This document shows positions 51,953 through 56,678 of a DNA stretch of 64,000 nucleotides, one piece after another; within the stretch, counting starts at the first letter, position 1; every line of letters starts with the position of its first letter. Made by a program: the position numbers and the translations under genes. The notes below the pieces were generated by a model. That model worked only from the letters and a program-made list of their open reading frames with translations. It had not been told where the DNA came from and did not search any database. The DNA comes from Leptospiraceae bacterium (lineage in GTDB: Bacteria; Spirochaetota; Leptospiria; Leptospirales; Leptospiraceae). The stretch covers positions 1-64,000 of the forward strand of contig JAGOHK010000001.1 of assembly GCA_017996175.1 (NCBI GenBank), given 5' to 3'.

Positions 51953-53890
51953 TTAGGAATTCACCTTACGATATTTAGTAAAAGATTGAATTAAAAACCG
52001 AGAAGGATTTATTTTCTCCAATAACTCTGAATGAATTGTTAGAGGTCCGCCAGTTATCATAGATGAAATAACGTTAGCCGCTAGATATGAGTTTAATATT
52101 CCCCTTGAACCATGTGCAGTCGAAACAAAAAGACCAGGTTCATATTGACCATCTCGATAATCCTTGTAGATATTTGACTTCCACAAATCGCTGTATTCGT
52201 TTTGAAAAGCCTGTAGATTAGGAACAGCCCCAACGATTGGTAAATGATCTTTACTCATTGCCCTAAAAGAAACCCTTCCTTCTAAATTAAGTCCATCTTC
52301 TGGATTGATTTCTGGGAATATATTTTTAAGCTTTTGAAGCAAATAAATATTATGCTCTTTCTTTAGTATTTCAGAAGGATCAGTCGGATCAAATGTGGCA
52401 CCTACTATGTGAAATCCATTCACATCAGGAATGATATATCCATCTTCGTGTAAAATTACATTCTTTAGCTGGGTAGAAAATTTTTTACTTGGAAAGTATA
52501 GAATTTGTCCTCTTACTTTTTTAACATCGAGTAATACTTCTACAAAATTTTGTGTTTCAAAAGAATTTGCGAAAATTACTATTTCCGATTCCAATACTTT
52601 GTTGTTTGACAGTAAAATTTTCCAGCAGGAATTTTCCCATTTTAAACTAGTGAGAGTAGTAGATAAAATTTGTTTTATATTTGGCTCTGAAAGTTTTATA
52701 TACGCTTGTGATAAAAGAACCGGACTCACCCAACCTGCTTTCGGAAAAAAGATTCCTTGGTATCCATTTAGAATGTCGTTATTTTTTTCTAGAAAAAATG
52801 CGTCATTTGACTCGAGTTTTGAGTTAGTAAATGCCTTTTGTAATTTATTAAACTCTTCCGAAGAACTAGTAACCTGAAATACCCCCGCATTACGAAAAAT
52901 CTCTGGAAATCTTTTTGAGTATTTATCCAAGAATTGAGTAAACTCCTTGTATGCCGCAATATTCCACTCACCTAAATCAGAAGTATCTCCTGTTAAAAGC
53001 GGTGCAAACATACCAGCAGGATTTCCTGAAGCACCTGATGAAATTTCACTCTCTCTTTCAACTAACGTTATAGAAAATCCCTTTTGCGATAAAGCAAAGA
53101 CTAGAGAAGTTCCTGCAAGCCCTGCTCCAATAACGACTGCTCGTTTGCTTTTAAAGTTATTCTTAGGAATACGAAACCAAGGTTTATCGGAAATCGTCTG
53201 GCGGATAATAGGTAGTTTTCCCTTTAACATATACTTTTTATTTCCAAAGCCAGGGAATTTCTCAACTAAGAAACCTACTTCTGTTAGCCCCTCTCTTACA
53301 AATCCTGCTGTTGTGTAAGTAGAAAAGCTTGCTCCTTTCTTAGAATTCTTTTTCATAAAAGAAAAATTTTCTTTCGACCACATCTCAGGATTTTTTGCTG
53401 GAGAAAATCCATCAAGGTACCAAACGTCAATTTTGGCATGAAAAGAATTTATTATTTCAGCTACATCAGCAACTATTAAAACTAGTTCTAATTTTCCATC
53501 TGCTGCGCTAAATTGATTGTAACCGGCAGAAATGGTTTTATAAAAGGAAAGAAATTCATTGGCAAATCCGTGTAAGCCCGCTTCTTTATCTAAAACTTCT
53601 TTAATTAACTCAAAGGGAAGTGGATATTTTTCGATGGAGAAAAACTGAACTTGGGCTATTGGTTTTAAGTCTTGGACTTTTTTCCAAGTTAAAAACAAAT
53701 TGAGTCCCGCGCCAAATCCAAATTCAAAGATTGTAAGAATTTTTTGCCTAGAAAAACGTTCGCTTAGATTATTTCCTTGAAAAAATACGTATTCTTTTTC
53801 TAAAAGCCCCCCTTGAGCAGACCAATAGATATCATGAAATAGATTGGAATAAAGTGTATTTGAATCGTACCAAGAAAAAGCAGATTCGAT
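51953..53890 (-). CDS. mnmC: tRNA mnm5U biosynthesis bifunctional protein MnmC
   Basis: Makes the last two steps of mnm5U at wobble U34. About 645 residues: N-terminal SAM methyltransferase (about 1-240: FHDIYWSAQGGL, EFGFGAGLN, WYLDGFSPAKNPEMW) and C-terminal FAD oxidase (about 250-645: AVVIGAGLAGTSLVFAL, GNPAGMFAPLL, STAHGSRG). No ATG, GTG or TTG lies in frame before 53698, yet codons upstream encode the conserved N-terminus back to 53890. I set the start at ATC (53890), inside the zapA stop region, with GGAG 10 bases before. A CTA at 53893 is another option. Translation coupled to zapA is likely. Confidence 0.85.
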   Translation of the reverse strand: MESAFSWYDSNTLYSNLFHDIYWSAQGGLLEKEYVFFQGNNLSERFSRQKILTIFEFGFGAGLNLFLTWKKVQDLKPIAQVQFFSIEKYPLPFELIKEVLDKEAGLHGFANEFLSFYKTISAGYNQFSAADGKLELVLIVADVAEIINSFHAKIDVWYLDGFSPAKNPEMWSKENFSFMKKNSKKGASFSTYTTAGFVREGLTEVGFLVEKFPGFGNKKYMLKGKLPIIRQTISDKPWFRIPKNNFKSKRAVVIGAGLAGTSLVFALSQKGFSITLVERESEISSGASGNPAGMFAPLLTGDTSDLGEWNIAAYKEFTQFLDKYSKRFPEIFRNAGVFQVTSSSEEFNKLQKAFTNSKLESNDAFFLEKNNDILNGYQGIFFPKAGWVSPVLLSQAYIKLSEPNIKQILSTTLTSLKWENSCWKILLSNNKVLESEIVIFANSFETQNFVEVLLDVKKVRGQILYFPSKKFSTQLKNVILHEDGYIIPDVNGFHIVGATFDPTDPSEILKKEHNIYLLQKLKNIFPEINPEDGLNLEGRVSFRAMSKDHLPIVGAVPNLQAFQNEYSDLWKSNIYKDYRDGQYEPGLFVSTAHGSRGILNSYLAANVISSMITGGPLTIHSELLEKINPSRFLIQSFTKYRKVNS

Positions 53891-54198
53891 TAGTAGATAT
53901 CTCCGATTAGCCCCTCATCGAGCATAGAGATCAATTTTTTAGTTTTCATTTCATAAAGACGAGAAACTTCATCATCACTATTTAGTTCTTTGTATTGAAA
54001 AAATTCATCCGCAATATTTAAAGCAGTAAGGATAGCTAGTTTTTGAACACTCGCACCCGGTAGAGAATGGGACAGTTCTCCCATTTTGTTGTCAATGTAT
54101 TTGGCTAGTTTTTGAATGTACTCTGGATCAGTTTCTCCAGAGATTGCATAGGTGGATCCGAAAATACTTACTTCAGTACGTGTAATCGGATGACTCAT
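53890..54198 (-). CDS. zapA: Cell division protein ZapA
   Basis: A 102-residue protein that bundles FtsZ filaments at the division ring. The N-terminal domain has VSIFGSTYAISGETDPEYIQKLAKYIDN-type sequence (residues 10-38) followed by ALNIADEFFQYKEL in the long helix. It follows the coiled-coil gene by 5 bases and its stop overlaps the proposed mnmC start. Confidence 0.9.
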   Translation of the reverse strand: MSHPITRTEVSIFGSTYAISGETDPEYIQKLAKYIDNKMGELSHSLPGASVQKLAILTALNIADEFFQYKELNSDDEVSRLYEMKTKKLISMLDEGLIGDIY

Positions 54199-54203
54199 AA
54201 AAT

Positions 54204-54902
54204 TTATTTCACTTCTTCCTCTATAATCAGAAAGTCGTCGTCGTCATCTGAATCAAACACATTGATTGAATCATCGTCTGTTTCATCAATGATAATATCA
54301 TCCGAGTCATCAATTAGAGGAGTATCATTTGCAGGTTCTGGAGTTTTTACAGGAACTTCTAATTTTACTTCTGCAACAGGTTCTTCTTTAACTGGAGTAG
54401 GAGGGGTCGACTCTGTAATATCATCCTCATCGTCGTCGAGTAGTATGATTTCATCGTTATCCTCTTCAAATTCAGAAGGATCGGAATCCTCTACTCTAGT
54501 AACTGGCGGAGTAACTGCTGGCTCTTCTTTTGGAGTTGAACTAGCAGATTGCACTACATGGGAAGCAGAAGAGGAAGAGGTCGAAGTTGAGGATTTTGAA
54601 TCTATATTCTTGTAAGAAGATAGATTATCCAAACGATTCATCATGTCATGAATCTTATTGTCTAGTTTCTTTTCCTTCGACTTGTATTCGTCTAATTCTT
54701 TTAGGGATTGTGCTAGCTGTTCACGAAGAGAAGCGATTTCTCGCTCTTTTTCTTCCATGGCTAGCTTCATCTGATCATTTTCAGCTCGAAGAGTCTCGTT
54801 ATCAGACTCTAATCTATTGTTTTCAGCTCTTAAGTCAGAAATGAGCTCAAGTGCTTTCATTATTTTTGTTTCTAGTTCTTCGATTGTTTCGAGTGAAATC
54901 AT
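54204..54902 (-). CDS. ZapB-like coiled-coil protein with acidic tail
   Basis: A 232-residue protein. Residues 1-95 form a heptad-patterned coiled coil (LETIEELETKIMKALELISD, LRAENNRLESDNETLRAEN) like ZapB. Residues 100-232 are a disordered Ser/Thr, Pro and then Asp/Glu-rich tail (DDDEDDI, DSDDDDDFLIIEEEVK). The tail is unusual for ZapB. Its place before zapA supports a cell-division role. The family assignment rests on the coiled coil only. The low-complexity codons give false open frames on the other strand. Confidence 0.65.
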   Translation of the reverse strand: MISLETIEELETKIMKALELISDLRAENNRLESDNETLRAENDQMKLAMEEKEREIASLREQLAQSLKELDEYKSKEKKLDNKIHDMMNRLDNLSSYKNIDSKSSTSTSSSSASHVVQSASSTPKEEPAVTPPVTRVEDSDPSEFEEDNDEIILLDDDEDDITESTPPTPVKEEPVAEVKLEVPVKTPEPANDTPLIDDSDDIIIDETDDDSINVFDSDDDDDFLIIEEEVK

Positions 54903-54974
54903 ACGGAATCTCCTAAAATAGTTTCGGTCATATCATACTAAAAAGAAAGACTTGCAACCAGAAAAAAAATAAAA

Positions 54975-55328
54975 TTAAGCAGCAAGCTTTGTTTTTTCTA
55001 CAATCGCCGCAAAAACTTCTTTATCGTTGTAAGCAATATCAGCTAAAGTCTTTCTGTTCATGTCAATTCCCAATTTCTTCAGAGAACTCATGAATTTAGA
55101 ATAAGAAACGCCGTTTTCGCGGGCAGCTGCATTAATTCTAGTAATCCATAAAGAACGAAAATCTCTCTTCTTAGCTCTTCTATCTCTGTACGCCCACTGA
55201 CCAGCTTTCATTACTGCACTTTTTGCAGTTCTATAAAGTTTGGATCTACCAGCACGAAATCCTTTCGCAGCTTTTAATACTTTTACTCTTCGGTTTTTGT
55301 GAATTGTTCCGTTTTTAACTCTAGCCAT
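54975..55328 (-). CDS. rplT: Ribosomal protein bL20
   Basis: A 117-residue 23S rRNA-binding protein: [20 protein letters not shown], then [20 protein letters not shown]. Standard length. Part of infC-rpmI-rplT, where L20 often represses the unit by binding the leader. Its start overlaps the rpmI stop by 1 base. Confidence 0.98.
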
Positions 55329-55531
55329 TATTTTCCTCCATAAGGTAACAACTTAATTACTCTGCCCATATCGGACTCATGCATTACAGTCGTTCCACCT
55401 AGGTTACGTTTTCTTTTAGGAGATTTTCCCGAAAGTTTATGCCTAGCATAGCTGCTAGCTCTTTTGATTTTTCCATTTTTTGTAAATTTGAACCGCTTTG
55501 CAGCAGATCTATTTGTTTTCATCTTTGGCAT
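55328..55531 (-). CDS. rpmI: Ribosomal protein bL35
   Basis: A 67-residue basic protein: [20 protein letters not shown] and [14 protein letters not shown] are characteristic. Lies between infC and rplT as in most bacteria. Confidence 0.98.
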
Positions 55532-55555
55532 TTGATTATCCTAACTAAAATATTC

Positions 55556-56092
55556 CTATGATTTTGGGTTAATTAAAACCACTATTTGTTTACCGTCATG
55601 AATAGGTGATTTTTCCGGAGTTCCGTGTTCTTTTAAATCTTCTATCATCTTTACGATAACATTCATACCTAATTCAGCATGAGCTAATTCACGTCCTTTA
55701 AAACGAAGCGTAACCTTGACTTTATCACCTTTTGTTAAGAATTCAAGGGCTTGTCTCTTCTTGATTTCGTAGTCATGAATACCAATACGAGGTCTTAATT
55801 TTACTTCTTTGATGGTGATTACATGCTGCTTTTTCTTAGCTTCTCTACTCTTTTTTAAAAGCTCAAAACGAAACTTACCATAGTCAATAATCTTAACAAC
55901 AGGAACATCTTGACCGACAGAAACTTCTACGAGATCTAAATTTTCCTCAGCAGCTTTTTTTAGGGCACTTTCAAGAGTAACTACTTCCGATCCTGTATCA
56001 CTAACTAGTCTAACATTGGGACCTGAAATCTGTTCGTTGATTCTAGGAGCATTGATTTTATCGTTCGTTCTAATATTTGGCTTTTTATGCAT
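55556..56092 (-). CDS. infC: Translation initiation factor IF-3
   Basis: A 178-residue factor that checks start-codon pairing on the 30S subunit. N-domain with [11 protein letters not shown] (about 8-18), linker [21 protein letters not shown]-domain [20 protein letters not shown] and [13 protein letters not shown]. The start here is ATG (after GGAGAATGA); many infC genes use AUU/AUC for self-control, so control here may differ. Confidence 0.97.
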
Positions 56093-56678
56093 TCATTCTC
56101 CGGACTAGTTTAACATCATTTTAAGGTAAGGAACAAATTCAAGAAATTTTTTGTCTTGTACTATATTTTGCAGAGAAAACAAAGGAGAAAACTCCTAAAA
56201 GAAGAAAAGCCAGCATTTTATTGGTTAATCCTGTGCCTGAATTAGAATGATTTAATCCAAGCGGATAATACATTTAGGATAAAGCCCGATCTAGAAAAGA
56301 AAATATCTAAGACTATTCCAAAAAAAACGTTGGTTGTCATACGATAGAGTTGGTGTGTATTTGTAGAAACTTTTAAAATCTCCCTACCCCGATACGTTAG
56401 CGATTGTAGTGGAAATGCTTCTTAGCATTGGAGCATTATGTTGCCCACCCATAGAGAGCAACATTGAGTTTGAGCGCGGCGGTGGTTCGACTCCGCTCGC
56501 TAGAGCTACCAACCGCGACCTTGTCCGGTCACTGAGCGGAGTCGAAGTGCCGCAACGCCCAGAAATCCCAAAACAAACGCCGTAAATTAGACAACCTGTA
56601 CTAAAAAAGGCTTTTCTCGAAGACGCCTTTCAAGATTAAGTTCAATTAAAGTCAAAATATTATATTTAAGAGGCGTTT
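56093..56678. other. 586-bp gap between infC and etfB
   Basis: Left third is AT-rich and should hold the infC promoter. From about 56380 to 56585 lies a GC-rich patch unlike its surroundings, with several small hairpins (AATGCT/AGCATT at about 56413, ATGTTGC/GCAACAT at 56438-56464) and the palindrome at 56486-56546. No coding region. The final 90 bases carry the etfB leader with AGAGG before the ATG. Confidence 0.5.
56486..56546. repeat. GC-rich palindromic element
   Basis: TTCGACTCCGCTC (56486-56498) and GAGCGGAGTCGAA (56534-56546) pair perfectly over 13 bp; GCGG and CCGC just outside add more pairing. The inner sequence contains a second small hairpin (GACC/GGTC). Its GC content stands out. 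It looks like an acquired or dispersed palindromic element, not a gene. Confidence 0.75.

Follow-up and report, generated by a model that had tools for sequence, protein, structure and literature searches.

The mnmC locus

The stretch of DNA analysed here (the window, 64,000 nucleotides) is part of a 172,665-base contig in a 5.4-Mb draft genome of 232 contigs (G000). Read in minus-strand order, a cluster of genes within it begins with infC (55556..56092), which matches the profile for initiation factor IF3 and has an ordinary ATG start at 56092. It continues with two genes that we take from their sequences to be rpmI (55328..55531) and rplT (54975..55328), a coiled-coil gene with an acidic tail (54204..54902), zapA (53890..54198), which encodes the cell division protein ZapA (Pfam PF05164), and finally mnmC. 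The three genes between infC and zapA come from the list of open reading frames. When read from the ATC codon discussed below, mnmC occupies 51953..53890, with 645 codons and a stop, and it encodes both a MnmC2 methyltransferase and a MnmC1 oxidoreductase domain, as judged from NCBIfam, Pfam, a structure model and Foldseek. The coiled-coil protein encoded directly upstream of zapA has a strongly acidic tail and is kept in one of the more distant relatives described below (G002); it is possibly a division partner of ZapA.

An earlier note on this DNA had claimed that mnmC has no ATG, GTG or TTG before 53698, and the claim was borne out, with all of the note's coordinates correct. An in-frame TGA (53915..53917) bounds the mnmC frame upstream; from 53914 the frame stays open as far as 51953, and it begins GGG GCT AAT CGG AGA TAT CTA CTA ATC GAA TCT GCT TTT. 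The first of the three canonical start codons is the TTG at 53696..53698, which is codon 65 and falls right after the motif EFGFGAGLN. In the stretch that separates the in-frame TGA from the conserved core of the protein, only one codon is a single base away from ATG, namely the ATC at 53888..53890. The end of zapA reads GGA GAT ATC TAC TAA, and base 53890 is common to the zapA stop (53890..53892) and the ATC, giving the junction TAATC. A GGAG that could serve as a Shine-Dalgarno site lies within zapA codons at 53901..53904, 10 nucleotides before the ATC; both the overlap and this spacing are exactly as the note had placed them. The same cluster contains a canonical counterpart of this junction, since the TAA of the rpmI-like gene overlaps the ATG of the rplT-like gene as TAATG behind a GGAGG (55325-55331, minus strand).

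The N-terminus of MnmC

Several lines of evidence indicate that the codons between the ATC and the first canonical start encode real protein. For codons 2-64, dN/dS is 0.10, 0.23 and 0.16 in the three species pairs available (see below), and the rest of the gene gives about 0.15-0.17; judged from these ratios, codons 2-64 are under purifying selection. The full-length MnmC profile NF002480 aligns residues 5-638 with model positions 5-643 of 645 at a score of 512.8 bits (cut-off 540), so that residue 5 coincides with model position 5, and a start at the TTG would cost 83 bits. The separate domain profiles both score above their cut-offs, at 210.4 bits for the MnmC2 methyltransferase domain (NF033855, cut-off 136) and 310.3 bits for the MnmC1 oxidoreductase domain (TIGR03197, cut-off 174.2).

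An AlphaFold2 model built with 13 sequences gives block means of pLDDT 81-92 for residues 1-64 and places strands at residues 5-9, 12-15, 20-24 and 51-57. The last of these leads into the SAM loop, and residues 1-64 would be lost from a protein begun at the TTG, which agrees with the expectation that the first canonical start would remove the SAM-binding loop. The best five solved matches found by Foldseek are MnmC structures of E. coli and Y. pestis, with E values of 7e-54 to 6e-51 and both domains covered. Selection, profile and model thus agree with the earlier proposal that the conserved N-terminus is encoded from 53890 down, and the protein is very likely produced with its N-terminus complete.

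Conservation of the missing start

Among the genomes compared are the window genome and three others of the same genus (G001, G002 and G003), together with one genome from another family (G010). The group that carries this mnmC arrangement consists of uncultured relatives of Leptospira, and sequence comparison makes an AUC start the most likely reading for its mnmC. Identity to the MnmC of the window is 88% in G001, 63% in G003 and 37% in G002. The note had suggested that orthologues be inspected for the same missing start, and this check turned up both the missing start and the TAATC junction in two further species of the genus: in G001 and G003, as in the window, the GGAG is followed by ten bases and then by TAATC. 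The stop of zapA and the start of mnmC thus lie within a few nucleotides on one strand, with a 1-nucleotide overlap, in three species. In all three the frame offers no compatible ATG, GTG or TTG, and the start codon is kept in the relatives, with G002 ambiguous. Counted from the ATC, a canonical start is first reached after 64 codons in the window genome, 145 in G001 and 108 in G003.

This situation is uncommon among MnmC proteins generally. A canonical start lies ahead of the conserved motif in 104 of the 109 distinct N-termini scored (80 of the loci in the survey being mostly gammaproteobacterial; seven further loci, in which the motif pattern did not fit, stand outside the 109). The five exceptions are all four members of the genus plus G010. 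Two of these are not counted as proof. In G002, two genes lie between zapA and mnmC, and the start region (L004, 1471-1479, plus strand) reads AGGA AATGA ATA ATC ATA, with an ATG present one frame off; this case is ambiguous, because there may be a base error or a shift here, and the start may be ATA or ATC. In G010 (locus L020), a CTG or an ATT near an AAGGA are rival candidates for the start. The mnmC of a genome from another genus of the same family (G005, locus L008) has an in-frame TAA within its match and may be broken there.

Conservation of the ATC as a codon says less, with 14 of 30 conserved isoleucine columns keeping one codon in all three species, and selection on the ATC as such is weakly shown by the sequences.

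A second gene, truB, with a probable near-cognate start

A second gene of this kind, which like mnmC encodes a tRNA-modifying enzyme, lies on contig C41 of the window genome, where the gene order is infB-rbfA-truB-rpsO-pnp (the names other than truB being presumed from their sequences). The conserved N-terminus of TruB, NSGFYLVHKPAGITSS, follows an ATT that overlaps the stop codon of rbfA (ATTAA). Sequence comparison identified truB loci without a canonical start in G000 (L188 and L189; C41, 27681-28574, plus strand) and in the relatives (L193 and L194). In G000, G001 and G003, no ATG, GTG or TTG lies ahead of the conserved N-terminus, and the ATT overlapping the rbfA stop is kept, in G001 and G003 even though the upstream codons differ. 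The G001 gene is the most restrictive: its frame is closed by a TGA just two codons ahead of the protein (TGA AGA ATT), leaving only two in-frame codons available. With a TGA that close, there is no room for a canonical start, and frameshifting becomes very unlikely. Starts could be read in 30 of 47 truB matches (17 were left out), and the other 27 of these 30 loci, G002 included, have a canonical start available. From its sequence, truB appears to work like mnmC, with an AUU on the rbfA stop, and its case tips the balance toward non-AUG initiation at mnmC as well.

How unusual the two genes are

Among 303 gene-like open reading frames in 393 kb of the window genome, mnmC stands out furthest in the coding signal that precedes the first canonical start. 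An enlarged survey (900 open reading frames, 1.22 Mb of the same genome) places it among four that exceed 10 bits, the other three being a frameshifted ankyrin-repeat gene and two fragment-like frames. When the 393 kb were scanned for a near-cognate codon next to an upstream stop, mnmC and truB were the only two rows.

The junction scan was also run on 1,222,218 bases of G000 (1014 coding-like open reading frames; 13 rows) and 533,171 bases of G001 (473 open reading frames; 8 rows). Conservation, a purine-rich site and coding signal that precedes the first canonical start came together only in mnmC and truB. Among the remaining rows, an ATA on contig C13 has the site but lacks coding signal, two (C47:14559 and L312:1256) look like fragments, and an open reading frame of G001 (L255) looked by inspection like a frameshifted gene. 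A further row lies inside the ankyrin-repeat gene (L330, 7086-7565, plus strand), whose repeats run on across a change of frame; it is either a frameshifted gene or the product of a base error. A cross-species search of 61 open reading frames with a G001 match of at least 50% identity, looking for sequence that is conserved before the first canonical start, likewise returned mnmC and truB as its recognised genes, its other rows being antisense frames or short leaders as read by inspection. The mnmC of G001 (contig C69) is a row in this search and is absent from the enlarged junction scan, with an added codon-usage filter as the likely cause.

Signals at the zapA-mnmC junction

Conservation of the GGAG was dropped as evidence, because the Gly-Asp codons of zapA supply most of it and because GGAG is also found at the end of zapA in G002, where mnmC is not adjacent. 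Evidence for the GGAG alone as a ribosome site is weak, and its spacing from the ATC is long. In all three species the minimum free energy folds pair GGAGA with an upstream UCUCU or UUUCC. However, the fold energies at the junction were not beyond those of shuffled sequences (z -1.47, 0.11 and 0.54), and comparison of the three species revealed no compensatory change in the paired positions. A conserved hairpin was therefore rejected. No Rfam match was found in 53000-56500.

The last codons of zapA are more conserved at synonymous sites than the rest of the gene (9 of 11 versus 25 of 67, p 0.008; three cut-points were tried, with p from 0.008 to 0.018). This fits a signal in the region, but it also fits double coding of the last codons.

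A model for mnmC initiation and its alternatives

The model that we favor, and regard as fairly probable in its entirety, is that mnmC is translated by weak initiation at the AUC, fed mainly by ribosomes that are ending zapA and probably curbed by IF3. Ribosomes finishing zapA would stop on the UAA, whose last A belongs to the AUC; some of these, possibly with the aid of the GGAG, would then load initiator tRNA on the AUC and enter mnmC, giving the full-length 645-residue protein at low yield. Free initiation would be poor, as AUC is a weak codon and is expected to be rejected by IF3, and the GGAG may sit in a small hairpin that is opened by translation of zapA. By analogy with known weak non-AUG starts, MnmC would thereby be kept at low yield. 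The parts of the model differ in strength. Initiation at the AUC (53890-53888) is highly likely from the sequence comparisons; it is the best-supported reading, since the junction is kept in three species and the competing TTG is not. That initiation depends mainly on translation of zapA is a good probability, made plausible by the 1-nucleotide overlap and the possible hairpin over the GGAG. Sensitivity of the start to IF3 has somewhat better than even chances. In this way IF3 could hold back a gene that shares its cluster, because mnmC lies downstream of infC and no terminator-like site was found between the two on their strand (in itself weak evidence).

The most serious challenge to the coupling part is that free 30S subunits use the AUC at the GGAG with no special dependence on zapA. 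The presence of the GGAG favors this, as does G002, whose mnmC seems to be non-canonical (ATA or ATC after AGGA) without any overlap; if that start is real, it also argues against coupling as a general rule. We nevertheless consider uncoupled initiation unlikely. The GGAG is at a long spacing and may be paired, and both clear cases, mnmC and truB, fall exactly on stop-start overlaps, although the scan that yielded them covered only sites near upstream stops. Ribosomes might instead shift frame by -1 toward the end of zapA, at GAG GGG CTA for instance, producing a ZapA-MnmC fusion and dispensing with an internal start altogether. The mnmC frame is indeed open for eight codons before the ATC, and GAG GGG is kept in the three species, whereas G002, with its mnmC elsewhere, has GAA GGT. 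But inspection by eye reveals only a GGGG as a candidate slip site (53911..53914, kept in the three species) and no suitably placed X XXY YYZ heptamer. There is likewise no Rfam element and no significant or covarying structure, and with only two in-frame codons before the conserved protein in the truB of G001, a shift explains the sister case poorly. We therefore judge a frameshift improbable.

The two remaining explanations dispense with unusual decoding, and both are far less credible still. An assembly base error could hide an ATG, or mnmC could be decaying, and it is true that the genome is a draft of many contigs in which frameshifted genes occur. However, the same junction is present in two further, independent genomes, which rules out a simple sequencing error and contradicts the base error that the earlier note had named as refuting its proposal. 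The 645 open codons and a dN/dS of about 0.15 along the gene also speak against decay, and there is very little chance that either explanation holds. The least credible of all is that MnmC starts at the TTG (53698), the codon that a gene finder would choose. This codon has in its favor that it is the first canonical start, but G001 has TTT and G003 has TTC at this position. A start there would also delete residues 1-64, which are under selection, complete the MnmC profile and are modelled confidently as part of the fold; translation is thus very hard to place at 53698.

Returning to initiation at the AUC, a relaxed IF3 was considered as its cause and rejected, because IF3 of the other two species is 96-99% identical to that of the window. 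Compared with 27 other loci, the IF3 proteins of the three species are set apart by K83R alone, at a position that hardly varies elsewhere. The factor looks normal from its sequence, with no sign of a loss of fidelity. The autoregulation known for infC was also set aside, since infC has an ATG here.

A broader proposal is that AUH codons placed on an upstream stop define a class of genes in this clade that are translated by reinitiation only and gated by IF3, tying mnmC and truB to the initiation-factor operons. Just-terminated ribosomes may be able to use AUC or AUU where free 30S subunits cannot. If so, mnmC (downstream of infC, encoding IF3) and truB (downstream of infB, encoding IF2) would follow the output and activity of these operons. 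We regard this extension as doubtful.

Relation to known non-canonical starts

E. coli pcnB is reported to start with AUU, and Hecht et al. 2017 is said to be a study of all 64 start codons. Proteins limited by a weak non-AUG start are familiar from accounts of infC, pcnB, sigR, ccpN and cvfC1; what is new here is the genes, mnmC and truB, the conservation of their starts within a clade, and the position of these starts on stop-start overlaps. Among titles and abstract openings, no report of the mnmC start codon, or of non-canonical starts in Leptospira or in truB, was found.

The infC gene is described as starting with ATT in E. coli and ATC in Streptomyces (PMC5472188), and with AUA in S. 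aureus (PMC13009471). Like mnmC, it thus has a near-cognate AUH start that limits translation, and the Streptomyces gene uses the same AUC. The difference is that those infC starts are described as autoregulating IF3, whereas here infC begins with ATG and it is mnmC that carries the weak start, at a stop-start overlap. Closer in this respect are pcnB and the S. aureus genes ccpN (AUA) and cvfC1 (AUU), in which a non-canonical start is conserved outside infC; the starts of the latter two are reported as measured to be weaker than AUG (PMC13009471). The S. aureus cases are described as relying on an extended Shine-Dalgarno sequence, however, and mnmC has a GGAG at long spacing together with the zapA overlap.

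Non-canonical starts are reported to be rejected by IF3 (PMC5472188). The Streptomyces sigR gene, with a GTC start repressed by IF3, resembles the proposal for mnmC as an instance of IF3 control of a non-infC gene through its start codon, and it provides a precedent for the misannotation of such genes (PMC5472188). It differs in that the codon is GTC rather than AUC, and its stop-start overlap, as described, is with the next gene, rsrA, and is a canonical ATGA. With regard to coupling, excess IF3 is reported to lower reinitiation, and to do so less when a Shine-Dalgarno site is present (PMC2268962). A -1 nucleotide overlap is described as one of the two commonest spacings of neighboring genes, with trpE-trpD as a coupled example (PMC12548453). 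The zapA-mnmC pair is like trpE-trpD in that stop and start share one base, but the mnmC start is ATC and not NTG.

Switches to AUH starts appear to be very rare. Of 61,358 ancestral AUG starts that were reconstructed in one study, a single one is reported to have become AUU, and the text does not mention AUC (PMC5622118). Against this background, a conserved AUC on an overlap, accompanied by an AUU case in these species, provides a natural setting in which to ask whether reinitiating ribosomes are less selective about the start codon than free ones. Such starts also matter for annotation, in that a gene finder limited to ATG, GTG and TTG would begin mnmC 64, 145 and 108 codons late in the three species and cut the SAM loop of a methyltransferase.
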